A DNA stretch of 41,191 nucleotides, from positions 1 to 41,191 of the forward strand of contig JACZQZ010000009.1 in the NCBI GenBank assembly GCA_022545455.1, read 5' to 3'. Below the pieces are notes generated by a model. That model was not told the origin of the DNA and did no database searches. It was given only the letters and a program-made list of their open reading frames with translations. Source of the DNA: Pseudomonadota bacterium (lineage in GTDB: Bacteria; Pseudomonadota; Alphaproteobacteria; Rhodospirillales; 2-02-FULL-58-16). Shown in pieces: positions 24,020-30,102 of the stretch; position 1 is the first letter of the stretch, and the number at the start of each line of letters is the position of its first letter. Made by a program: the position numbers and the translations under genes.

Positions 24020-25485
24020 CGTCCCAGCTCCCCGATGGCGGCGCGCAGGACTTCGGCGTCGTCGAAAGGCCGCACCTCGTCGCCGACGATCTGGCCCTGC
24101 TCGTGTCCCTTGCCGGCGACCACCAACAGGTCGCCGGGCCGCAACTCGGCGACCGCGGCGGCGATGGCCTGGCGCCGGTCCGCGATGTCGCGTGCCCCTT
24201 CGCAGGCGGCCAGGATCTGGCGGCGGATGCGCGCCGCATCCTCGCCGCGCGGGTTGTCGTCGGTGACGATGACCACGTCGGCGAGGGCGCATGCCGTGCG
24301 CCCCATCTGGGGCCGCTTGCCGGGGTCGCGGTCGCCGCCGCACCCGAACACCACGAAGAGGCGTCCCCGGGCGTGGGGACGCAGGGCCTCGAGCACGTTG
24401 GCGAGGGCGTCCGGCGTGTGGGCGTAGTCGACGAAAACGGCGGCGCCGCCGGGGTGGCCAGCGATCCTTTGGACCCGTCCCGGCGCCCCGTCCAGGCCCT
24501 CCAGGGCGGCCACGGCGCGCTCTGCGTCCTCGCCGCAGGCGAGCGCCAGGCCGAGGGCGCAGAGCGCGTTTTCGGCCTGGAAGGCGCCGACCAGGGGCAG
24601 GGTGACCGTATGGGCCCGGCCCATGACGGTCAGCCGCAACCGCTGTCCTTCGGGCAGCGGCGCGGCGTCCTCCAGGCGGATGTCTTCGCCCCGGGCGCCG
24701 TAGGTGATGATGCGGTGTCCCCTGGCCGCGCAGACGGCCCGCACGGCCTCGCCGTATGGCGCGTCCGCGTTCACCACCGCCACGCCGCCGGCGCCCATGA
24801 TGTCGGAGAACAGCCGCGTCTTCGCCTCCAGGTACGATTCCATGGAGCCGTGGTAATCCAGGTGGTCCCGGGACAAATTGGTGAACGCGCCGGCCGTCAC
24901 GCGCACCCCGTCCAGGCGGTGCTGGGCGAGGCCGTGGCTGGAGGCTTCCATGGCCAGGCACTCGACGCCCCGCCCGGCCAGGTCGGCGAGAATGCGGTGC
25001 AGCTCCACCGGGTCGGGGGTGGTCAGGCTGCCGGCGACCTCCAACCCGGGTGCGGATATGCCGAGGGTGCCCAGGCCGGCGGCCTGACGGCCCAGCCGCG
25101 TCCACACCTGGCGCAGGAAGGACACCACCGAGGTCTTGCCGTTGGTCCCGGTTACCGCGGCCACCGTGGGCGGCTGGGAAGCGAAGAATCGCGCCGCCAT
25201 GAGGGCGAAACGGCGGCGCGGATTGTCGTCGACGAGCAGGGGAACCGGGGGCTCCCGGTTTTCGATGCGGGTGCCGGGCGGCGCCAGCACGGCCGCCGCG
25301 CCGCGCCGCATCGCCTCGGGGATGAAGGCCCGGCCGTCGGCGCGGGCGCCGGCCAGCGCGGCAAAGAGGAATCCGGGCTCGACCAGGCGCGAGTCACATG
25401 TCAGACCGACGATGTCCGTATCCTTGCTTATCGCTCTTTGCGCCACCTGGGAATCGTCTCCTTCGACAAGATCAATGAGCCGCAA
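24016..25485 (-). CDS. murE: UDP-N-acetylmuramoylalanyl-D-glutamate--2,6-diaminopimelate ligase
   Basis: TCDSRLVEPGFLFAALAG; VTGTNGKTSVVSFLRQVW; VDYAHTPDALANVL; VTDDNPRGED (DAP-type DNPR motif). Start probably TTG 25485 overlapping ftsI; the ORF extends to ATG 25587. Confidence 0.94.
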   Translation of the reverse strand: MRLIDLVEGDDSQVAQRAISKDTDIVGLTCDSRLVEPGFLFAALAGARADGRAFIPEAMRRGAAAVLAPPGTRIENREPPVPLLVDDNPRRRFALMAARFFASQPPTVAAVTGTNGKTSVVSFLRQVWTRLGRQAAGLGTLGISAPGLEVAGSLTTPDPVELHRILADLAGRGVECLAMEASSHGLAQHRLDGVRVTAGAFTNLSRDHLDYHGSMESYLEAKTRLFSDIMGAGGVAVVNADAPYGEAVRAVCAARGHRIITYGARGEDIRLEDAAPLPEGQRLRLTVMGRAHTVTLPLVGAFQAENALCALGLALACGEDAERAVAALEGLDGAPGRVQRIAGHPGGAAVFVDYAHTPDALANVLEALRPHARGRLFVVFGCGGDRDPGKRPQMGRTACALADVVIVTDDNPRGEDAARIRRQILAACEGARDIADRRQAIAAAVAELRPGDLLVVAGKGHEQGQIVGDEVRPFDDAEVLRAAIGELGR

Positions 25486-27214
25486 GGCGTTGCTCCCGGA
25501 CCTTCGCCGGCGGGGGGTTGAGGGAAGCGAGCAGCGGGTGCGCGCCTTTCGGCGTCTCTTCCCCGGAGACCGGGGCGAAGCCCACAAGGGGCGCCATGCG
25601 CCGCACCATCCGGGCCACCACCGGCGCGGCGACCCGGCCCCCGGTGGCGGCCTTGCCGTCGGTGCCCTTGGGCTCGTCGAGCAGGATCAGCACCACATAG
25701 CGGGGCGCATTCATGGGGAAGGCGCCGACGAAGGAGGAAATCGAGGCGTCGCTGCGGTATCTGCCGCCCTCCAGTTTGTCGGCGGTTCCCGTCTTGCCGC
25801 CGACCCTGTAGCCCGGCGCCTGCGCCCTCCTGCCGGTGCCGCGGAGCACGACCAGGCGCATCAGCGCGCGCATCTGCCGCGACGTGGCCACGGACAACAC
25901 CCGCCTGCCTCCCGGCTGGACGCCGTCGGGCCGGCGCAGCAGGGTCGTCGGACGCGCGATGCCGCCGTTGACCACGGTGGCCACGGCCCCCGCCATCTGC
26001 AGCGGGGTCACGGCGATGCCGTGGCCGTATCCGATGGTCATGGTGTTGATGTCGCGCCACCGCGCCGGAATCAGCGGCGGCGCCACCTCGGGCAGCTCGA
26101 TGGGCGAACGGCTGAGCAGCCCGAAGTTGCCGAGATAGGACCGCTGGACCCGGGCGCCCACGTCCAGGGCCATCTTGGCGGCCCCGATATTGGACGAATA
26201 GACCAGGATTTCCGGCACCGACAGCCACCGGTTGCGGCCGTGGAAGTCGGTGATGGTGAAGCGGGCGACGCGGATGGGCCGGCTGGCGTCATACCCGTCG
26301 CGCAGGGTCACCGCGCCGCTGTCCAGGGCCATGGCCGTGGTGAACAGCTTGAAGGTGGAGCCCATCTCGTAGACGGCCTTGGTCACCCGGTTGAAACCGG
26401 CCTCGCCGCCGGCGGTGGCGGGCCGGTTGGGGTCGAAGTCGGGCAGGGAGGCGAGGGCCAGGATTTCGCCGTTCCTCACGTCGAGCACCAGCCCGGCGGC
26501 GCCCAACGCCCTGGACCCGATGAAGGCGGCGGAGAGCTCCTGGCGCAGCATCGCCTGCAGGCGAAGGTCGACCGACAGCCGCAAGGGTCCGCCGCGGCGC
26601 AGGGTTTCGTCGAAACGCCGTTCCAGGCCGGCGATGCCGCGGCCGTCCACGTCGGTGAACCCAAGCAGATGCGCCGCCGTCCGCCCGTGGGGGTAGACCC
26701 GGTGCTCGCCGCGCTGGAAGGCGAGGCCGGGGATGCCGAGGCGGTTGACCGCGTATTGCTGCGTCGGGGTCAGGGTGCGGCGCAGCCAGACGAAGCGCCC
26801 CCGGGACGTCAGCTTGGCCAGCACCTCGGACCGGTCGAGGCCGGGCAGGACCCCCACCAGCTTGTCGGCGGCCTCTTCCGCGTCCAGCACCTCGGTGGGG
26901 TCGGCGTAAAGCGAAACGGTGGGCAGGCTGGTCGCCAGGATGACGCCGTTGCGGTCGGTGATGTCGGCGCGCCCGCTGGTCGCGGCGCGGGCCGGGGCCA
27001 CGGCCGCCAGGCGGGACTCGGCGCCCCTCCCCAGCAAGGTCAGGTCGACCAGGCGCCCGGCGATGGCAAGAAAGGCCAGCGCGAAGACGACGCTGGTGAC
27101 CAGCAGGCGGTTGCGCCCCGTTTCCAGGGCCTGCTTGCGGGTGCCCTCCAGGCGGACCCGGTGCCGTTGCCAGGCTTCCGCGTGGATGGAACGGGACATC
27201 TCGCCCTGTGTCAC
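25472..27214 (-). CDS. ftsI: Peptidoglycan D,D-transpeptidase FtsI (PBP3)
   Basis: EMGSTFKLFTTAMAL (SxxK), VYSSNIGAAKMA (SxN), YRVGGKTGTADKLEGG (KTG). GTG start at 27214 overlaps the ftsL stop. Confidence 0.95.
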   Translation of the reverse strand: MTQGEMSRSIHAEAWQRHRVRLEGTRKQALETGRNRLLVTSVVFALAFLAIAGRLVDLTLLGRGAESRLAAVAPARAATSGRADITDRNGVILATSLPTVSLYADPTEVLDAEEAADKLVGVLPGLDRSEVLAKLTSRGRFVWLRRTLTPTQQYAVNRLGIPGLAFQRGEHRVYPHGRTAAHLLGFTDVDGRGIAGLERRFDETLRRGGPLRLSVDLRLQAMLRQELSAAFIGSRALGAAGLVLDVRNGEILALASLPDFDPNRPATAGGEAGFNRVTKAVYEMGSTFKLFTTAMALDSGAVTLRDGYDASRPIRVARFTITDFHGRNRWLSVPEILVYSSNIGAAKMALDVGARVQRSYLGNFGLLSRSPIELPEVAPPLIPARWRDINTMTIGYGHGIAVTPLQMAGAVATVVNGGIARPTTLLRRPDGVQPGGRRVLSVATSRQMRALMRLVVLRGTGRRAQAPGYRVGGKTGTADKLEGGRYRSDASISSFVGAFPMNAPRYVVLILLDEPKGTDGKAATGGRVAAPVVARMVRRMAPLVGFAPVSGEETPKGAHPLLASLNPPPAKVREQRLAAH

Positions 27215-27579
27215 CGGATCACCCTTCCGCCGATTGATGGTGTGGGAAGACGCGGCGTGTTCCGGTCCGCCACGTTGGTCCTCGGGGCGCGTTCGCGGCC
27301 GGACGAGAGCACCGACAGCGTGGCGAGGGTGCCCAACTGCTCCGATTCCACGGGGCGCAGCCCCAGGTGCCGCGCGGCCAAGGGGCCCAGGCGCGCGGGA
27401 TCGTTGAGATAGCTCCACTCCGCCTCGAGCACGCGCATGGCCCGCCGCTCGGCCAAGATGGAGCGGTTGAGGCCGACGAACTCGTCCTCCAGGTCCTGCA
27501 CCCGGTACTTGAGCGAGAACAGGGCCAGGCTCAGCGCCGCGGCCAGGAAGACGAACAGCACCGTGGTCCGCCGCATCAT
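27211..27579 (-). CDS. ftsL: Cell division protein FtsL
   Basis: Single TM followed by coiled coil [52 protein letters not shown], between rsmH and ftsI. Confidence 0.88.
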
Positions 27580-28547
27580 GCCGGGCCTCCCCTCATGGCG
27601 CCGGTCCACGGCGGCCCGGCGGTACGTTCGGCGGCCCTGAGGCGCGCCGAGCGGGCGCGCGGATTGGCGGCGATCTCGTCCGCCGAGGGCTTGGCCACCC
27701 CGCGGCCGAGGAGGAGAAAACTGGGCGGCGGCGGCGCCTCCGCGGGGCCGGGGACGTGGCGCGAAGGCCGGGGCGCGGCGCCGCCGCGGATCCTCAGGAA
27801 ATCCTTGACCGTCCTGTCCTCCAGGGAATGGAAGGAGACCACGGCCAAACGGCCCCCGGGGCCGAGCAGGGTTTCCGCCGCCGACAGGCCCCGGTCGAGC
27901 TCGCCGAGTTCGTCGTTGACGTAAATGCGCAGGGCCTGGAAGGTGCGGGTGGCGGGATCGATGCCGTCCCGGGACCGGGTGACGACGCGGCGCACCAGGT
28001 CGGCCAACTGGCGGGTCCGGGTGATGGGCGCCTCGGCGCGGGCCTCGACGATGGCCCGGGCGACGCGCCGGGATGCCCGTTCCCCGCCGTACCGATAGAT
28101 AATGTCGGCGAGTTCCTTTTCGCCCGAGTGGTTGACCACGTCGGCCGCGGTCCTTCCCACTTTGTCCATGCGCATGTCGAGGGGGCCGTCGGCCTGGAAG
28201 GAAAAGCCGCGCGCCGGAGCGTCCAGTTGCATCGACGACAGGCCCAGATCCAGGGCAACGCCGTCCACCCGGTCGACGCCGACACCACCAAGCAGCCCCG
28301 TCATGTCGCCGTAGCGCCCGTGGATGACCGTGAAGCGGCCCGGATACCGGCGCTCCATATGGGTGCCGCTCCGCACCGCATCGGGGTCGCGGTCGATACC
28401 CCAGACCGTGCACCGGGCGGCCTTGAGGACGGCTTCCGAATATCCCCCGGCGCCGAAGGTGGCGTCCACGTAGATGGCGCCGTCGCGGGGGGCCAAAACC
28501 TCCAGCACCTGGCGCAGCATCACCGGCGTGTGGGCGGGCGCCGACAC
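27576..28547 (-). CDS. rsmH: 16S rRNA (cytosine1402-N4)-methyltransferase RsmH (MraW)
   Basis: [76 protein letters not shown] start. Confidence 0.96.
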
Positions 28548-28549
28548 GG

Positions 28550-29017
28550 CTAAGCCTCCTCGTCCCGGTTTCGGCGCAGGCGCAGGGTGGCGCGGCGCGA
28601 CCGGGCACGCTCCAATGCCTGGTTGTGGTTGGCGTCGTAGGCCTTGGGCTCCCAGATCTGCAGGCGCGCGCCGCGGCCCACGAACAGGGCCTCGCCGGCC
28701 AGGCCCGCGTGCTCGATCAGCACCTTGGGCAGCACGATGCGGCCCTCGGGATCGAACGGCAGGGGATGGGCGTTCTCCAGGATGATGGCGGCCAGGTCGT
28801 CGTGGTCGTCGGAGAACATGTCCAGGTCCTCGAGGCTCGCGCTGATGCGGACCATGAAGTCCTCGTCGCACGCCTCGATGGCCGGAAATTTGAACAGGGG
28901 ATACGCGTACAGCCCGGCGAAGTCGTGCTCCCGGAAGGTATCGCGAAAGGGTTTGGGAACGGAAATCCGCCCCTTCTTGTCGATCCTGTTGACGTACCTG
29001 CCGACCAGCAGCGCCAT
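28550..29017 (-). CDS. mraZ: Transcriptional regulator MraZ
   Basis: [54 protein letters not shown] duplicated AbrB-like domain. Confidence 0.96.
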
Positions 29018-29098: not shown

Positions 29099-29163
29099 TG
29101 GGCCATATTGGGATACCATGGGAAATCATGGGCGTCAATGGGATACTGTGGTTTTACTTGGGC
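29099..29163. promoter_or_regulatory. MraZ-box-like array: seven TGG(G/T) units at exact 10-bp periodicity upstream of mraZ
   Basis: TGGGccatat|TGGGatacca|TGGGaaatca|TGGGcgtcaa|TGGGatactg|TGGTtttact|TGGGc beginning at 29099, 29109, 29119, 29129, 29139, 29149 and 29159. Confidence 0.8.
29110..29138 (-). promoter_or_regulatory. Candidate mraZ/dcw promoter embedded in the TGGG array
   Basis: Minus strand TTGACG (29133-29138), 17-bp spacer, TATCCC (29110-29115). Confidence 0.35.
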
Positions 29164-29487: not shown

Positions 29488-29566
29488 CCCTTTGCGTTCC
29501 TCTGCGTCCTCTGCGTTTGAATTATTTTCAACGCCGAGGGCGCCGAGGTGCGCGGAGGTACGCCGA
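29488..29566. repeat. Imperfect palindromic repeat of the CTCTGCGTCCTCTGCGTT / AACGCCGAGG type
   Basis: ctttgcgttcctctgcgtcctctgcgtt-TGAATTATTTTC-aacgccgagggcgccgaggtgcgcggag; the arms pair with several G-U pairs. Confidence 0.6.
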
Positions 29567-29684
29567 GAATTTTGTAAGCGCTCAGCGCCCCTTGGTATGA
29601 GCCCGTCTTCGGCGATCCCCGACGTTTCGGTCCTTTCACGCCTCGGGAATCCGGCATTCGGCACTACACGACGGCGGAAAGGAA

Positions 29685-30102
<418 letters not shown>

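Follow-up and report, generated by a model that had tools for sequence, protein, structure and literature searches.

An array of seven 10-bp-phased slots upstream of mraZ in an alphaproteobacterial genome is probably an operator for autorepression, at which MraZ would turn down its own promoter and with it the dcw operon (mraZ-rsmH-ftsL-ftsI and onward), a reading to which we assign a probability of roughly 0.85. The array lies within what we term the window, the whole 41,191-nt stretch of DNA that was analyzed. Few bacterial regulators are as conserved as MraZ, and work on its operators concerns, to our knowledge, repeats that are carried on the sense strand and either overlap the start site or follow it. 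In the systems described elsewhere, the protein binds repeats in 10-bp phase within the mraZ promoter and represses the dcw genes (PMC7761207; PMC8475190).

The array and its genetic setting

The array spans positions 29099..29162 of the plus strand, with TGGG starting at 29099, 29109, 29119, 29129, 29139 and 29159 and TGGT starting at 29149; all of these positions, and their strict 10-bp phase, are as the original prediction gave them. Because mraZ is encoded on the minus strand, the units read as CCCA or ACCA in the sense of the gene, whose start codon lies about 80 nt from the end of the array. The arrangement looked for in an MraZ operator, at least three TGGG/GTG units with a 10-bp period upstream of mraZ, is thus present in the window. 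Periods of 7-9 and 11-14 each accommodate at most three units in the array region, and simulated windows with the same dinucleotide make-up as the real one (n = 300) reached a maximum of three, versus the six exact TGGG found in seven phased slots. Across the whole genome (2.76 Mb in 191 contigs), no second array of four units was found with up to one mismatch, and the sole other exact three-unit match, located on a different contig, is a 10-bp minisatellite (TGGGGACTAG). The array in the window is accordingly the genome's only non-satellite array with at least three exact units, and the genome-wide search for a second array yielded no sign of an MraZ regulon beyond dcw.

The gene that follows the array (28550..29017, minus strand) encodes a 155-aa MraZ, identified by its PF02381 domain (3.8e-15; 56 bits against a curated cut-off of 23) and by a match to the crystal structure 1n0e (7e-07). 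Both of the two DxxGR-type DNA-contact loops are present in this protein; as in other Alphaproteobacteria, its second LR motif is without the Arg, where other phyla have L-R. As is characteristic of the family, mraZ is the first dcw gene, with rsmH (mraW; 27576..28553; PF01795, 4.4e-92), a probable ftsL and ftsI (25472-27400; PF00905 and PF03717) following on the minus strand. The ftsL-like open reading frame (27211..27577, minus strand, start approximate) was taken from its translation and is assigned by its position and an apparent N-terminal hydrophobic stretch. The upstream neighbor is rnpB, encoding a class A RNase P RNA (29685..30097; RF00010, 285 bits), beyond which lies an N-acetylmuramoyl-L-alanine amidase gene; rnpB shares the minus strand with mraZ, and we found no plausible divergent gene on the plus strand that the array might serve. 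RNase P was also the sole match when the window and 20 class loci were searched for UpsM or other known leader RNAs. Between rnpB and mraZ stands a dispersed repeat, palindromic and about 91 bp long (29488-29578), with 16 matches in the genome.

A candidate promoter woven into the array

On the minus strand, TTGACG (29138-29133) and TATCCC (29115-29110) stand 17 nt apart, such that the putative −35 element (29133..29138) fills the spacer between two operator units and an extended −10 element, TGG-TATCCC (29110..29118), overlaps a unit. Transcription is predicted to start 6-8 nt past the −10, at 29102..29104 on the minus strand, which would give mraZ a 5′UTR of about 85-87 nt. A generic sigma-70 scan did not list this promoter because its −10 is without the final T; the hexamer, TATCCC, seems to be compromised by the operator and is apparently aided by the extended TG. 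When loci of the same order were anchored on an in-phase TTGA (n = 45), the aligned columns read CCCATTGAC-n-CCCAT-n5-CCCATG-n-TATCCCA, with the −35 inside a spacer. Within these columns TTGA is invariant, as the anchor itself demands, and the C stands at 93%. TGnTAT at the 17-nt spacing is found in 89% of the anchored order loci and in 80% of the anchored class loci, anchoring on TTGA having been possible for about half of the class sample.

A published start site supports this placement. The mraZ promoters of Sinorhizobium meliloti and Rhizobium leguminosarum carry CCCATTGACGCCCAn6CCCATGnTATCCCA, which matches the window in both orientation and weave but has four units only and a longer leader (about 170 nt). 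For S. meliloti strain Ak57, from which the array sequence was taken, a start 6-8 nt past the −10 predicts an mraZ 5′UTR of 170-172 nt, and a start 7-8 nt past it one of 170-171 nt; the published value for S. meliloti is 170 nt (Weber et al., public sequencing data; PMC5089854), in agreement with the woven-promoter prediction. The TTGACG-N17-TATCCC promoter that had been proposed to overlap the array on the mraZ strand is therefore supported, with its −35 and −10 conserved inside the array and a leader length in S. meliloti that fits.

Conservation of the array and competing explanations

To place the array in a wider setting, we compared the regions upstream of mraZ in relatives, taking 50 loci from the order of this genome and 110 from its class. 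At least three perfect CCCA units in 10-bp phase precede mraZ at 45 of the 50 order loci and 86 of the 110 class loci. The class figure is slightly too low, since about ten of the sampled genomes, each with at least five units, had been fetched earlier by pattern search and fall outside the 110; roughly one in five class loci that have mraZ are without three perfect units. Among 3,200 shuffles of those upstream regions, none had three units. Perfect units range from one to six in the order, with at least five at 25 of the 50 loci, and seven of the 50 show the full seven-slot layout with the imperfect slot 2 that the window also has; the same layout is found at two loci of Rhodospirillales/Rhodospirillaceae (L078 and L176) among the pattern matches listed. 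The closest relative in the genus (L006, whose MraZ is 94% identical) has lost one outer unit. Because seven-slot arrays recur in the order and so many loci hold at least five perfect units, the length is ordinary: seven slots is, as judged from these loci, the long end of the normal range rather than an oddity of this genome. The earlier description of an unusually long operator holds against the three units of E. coli but not within the order, while a loss of the 10-bp phasing in close relatives, which had been named as evidence that would speak against an operator, did not occur.

The array also tends to disappear together with mraZ. Among 30 class genomes with no PF02381 hit, which we searched for rsmH, an alphaproteobacterial MraZ profile recovered an MraZ open reading frame before rsmH in six (five genomes of family f43, in which the protein is divergent, and G101); these six and two other loci were left out of the co-loss count. 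At least three phased units were found at one of the remaining 22 rsmH loci, compared with 86 of 110 in the class sample (Fisher p = 5e-11, with phylogeny ignored and the 22 spanning many families), a pattern of absence that is expected of an MraZ operator. The exception, L387 (G191, a 0.8-Mb genome with no mraZ), keeps CCCATTGACGCCCAGCTATTCCCATGTTATTTTC about 218 bp upstream of rsmH; to judge from its sequence, this array is a relic operator in which the −10 has drifted from TATCCC to TATTTT. The reverse situation is seen in family f43 (L370, L371, L372, L375 and L376), where a divergent mraZ is present and the CCCA array absent, and in Sphingomonas parapaucimobilis (L348), where mraZ is likewise present and the array absent. 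As the f43 and Sphingomonas lineages keep a divergent MraZ without the array, the pairing of the two is not universal, and these lineages may use another operator or none. The proposal of an MraZ operator is supported, at the level of sequence comparison, by the conserved position of the array, its co-loss with mraZ and its uniqueness in the genome.

A different origin is conceivable, if doubtful, for the two units farthest from mraZ (29149 and 29159), which could be remnants of a site for another regulator with a CtrA-like TTAAC, leaving a true MraZ operator of five units. Order relatives have a conserved CTTTGTTAACCCAAGTAA whose TTAAC abuts unit 1, a CtrA motif is reported at S. meliloti mraZ (PMC3616915; PMC4414408), and elsewhere in the class these two slots are seldom filled, with CCCA at 4-6%. 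The window, however, has lost the TTAAC (GTGAG) while keeping CCCAAGTAA, and 62% of the order loci hold slot 2 in strict phase as nCCA, with CCCA at 9%. Across the order the two slots coincide with the CtrA-like TTAAC, of which they may in part be a component. CTTTGTTAACCCAAGTAA itself is seen about 20-35 nt upstream of the unit that bears the −35 (for example, at L014, L019 and L021), and has degraded to CTTTGTGAGCCCAAGTAAA in the window.

The makeup of slot 2 likewise bears on whether the array might act as a G-quadruplex, with GGG runs 7 nt apart folding on the mraZ template strand and controlling dcw transcription. GGG-N7 repeats do fit the G3+N1-7 motif, and a quadruplex has been reported for the S. 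aureus mraZ promoter (PMC11796246). For such a structure it is four G3 tracts, not the phase, that should be conserved, but the loci show the opposite: slot 2 is conserved as nCCA, without the third G, and half of the phased units in other proteobacteria are not GTGGG (they read GTGGT, GTGGA, GTGTC and others) although the 10-bp phase is kept, indicating that G3 tracts are not the conserved feature. Folding would moreover leave both the loss of the array with mraZ and the strict 10-bp period unexplained, and we regard it as very improbable.

Finally, we scanned about 85,000 genomes for the seven-unit pattern and examined 120 among the matches listed. In this set, 117 lie away from mraZ and are satellites, their spacer identity having a median of 0.94 and a minimum of 0.44, and three lie beside mraZ, with spacer identities of 0.29-0.36; the window's own value, 0.29, is the chance level for unrelated spacers. 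Bare seven-unit TGGG matches are thus common as satellites in other genomes, but the diverged spacers rule out a minisatellite here, and a chance origin is rejected by the simulations and by conservation across the class, so that we treat both sources as negligible. At mraZ-adjacent arrays, the divergence of the spacers leaves the units and their phase as the sole conserved features, the pattern that an array bound by a protein should give.

A probable inverted operator and its meaning

Wherever alphaproteobacterial loci have the array, its units are CCCA in the sense of mraZ. At least three sense TGGG units occur at one alphaproteobacterial locus only (L260, in G238), which also has a CCCA array; its three phased sense TGGG units stand further upstream than that array. 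In gamma- and betaproteobacteria, Bacillota, Actinomycetota and Bacteroidota, by contrast, the mraZ-sense units are GTG(GG). Thirty other proteobacterial loci include 22 with at least three sense GTG units and none with at least three sense CAC units, and sense GTG units are likewise found in E. coli, Aeromonas, Burkholderia, Bacillus, Paenibacillus, Nonomuraea, Phocaeicola and Monoglobus.

This orientation sets the array apart from the E. coli operator and its Burkholderia counterpart. The E. coli mraZ operator (Pmra, mraZ1p), for which repression by MraZ has been published (Eraso 2014, as cited in PMC7761207 and PMC8475190), resembles the window in having TGGG units every 10 bp before mraZ (GTGGG, three times); its units, however, are GTGGG in mraZ sense and lie downstream of the −10, whereas those of the window are inverted, as CCCA in seven slots, and extend over the −35 and −10. 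The E. coli array begins 44 nt before the ATG and the mraZ 5′UTR is 38 nt (PMC5089854), which puts the start of the array at about −6. PmraBc of Burkholderia cenocepacia similarly has four repeats with a 10-bp period that are bound by MraZ in EMSA (PMC7761207), but these are sense GTG units that lie past the −10 and span the start site. In Mycoplasma gallisepticum, an octameric MraZ binds 10-bp-period direct repeats, (AAAGTGKN3)3 (PMC5282649), which differ in their AAAGTG core and belong to a different host class. The literature searched, with subscription papers mostly outside it, yielded no description of an inverted, promoter-overlapping alphaproteobacterial operator, and no binding or expression study of any alphaproteobacterial MraZ was found in it. 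Against that literature the inverted, promoter-covering operator appears to be new, and the seven-unit length alone ordinary. The original prediction was thus supported in calling the array an MraZ operator that overlaps the dcw promoter; it overstated the length, and it missed the strand of mraZ and the inversion of the array.

The alphaproteobacterial unit is [A/T]TGGG, placed on the strand opposite mraZ and repeated once per helical turn, with the −35 TTGAC set in one spacer, TG-n-TAT in another and the −10 hexamer taking its final CCC from a unit. A ring of MraZ that contacts the DNA from a single side would span about −60 to +4 and so exclude RNA polymerase. We infer that MraZ binds here, that it represses and that steric exclusion is its mode, autorepression by blocked RNA polymerase binding being what we would take as the simplest reading. 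In its distribution, the absence of the second-motif Arg from alphaproteobacterial MraZ matches both the replacement of GTGGG units by [A/T]TGGG and the reversal of the array. A fuller scenario, which we offer tentatively and consider rather unlikely as a whole, is that in Alphaproteobacteria the inverted operator left the early transcribed region for the core promoter, where MraZ would exclude RNA polymerase instead of acting from a position past the −10, that this change accompanied the altered unit preference and the loss of the second-motif Arg, and that in this Rhodospirillales-related order the operator grew to seven slots, enough to fit two MraZ rings and allow graded or cooperative control of dcw.

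Because the inversion onto the core promoter is class-wide, MraZ probably represses in a different manner in Alphaproteobacteria than in E. coli. CCCATTGACnCCCAn6CCCATGnTATCCCA is a clear signature by which dcw promoters can be found across the class, and the natural series of two to seven units would offer a test of how unit number relates to repression by a ring-shaped regulator.
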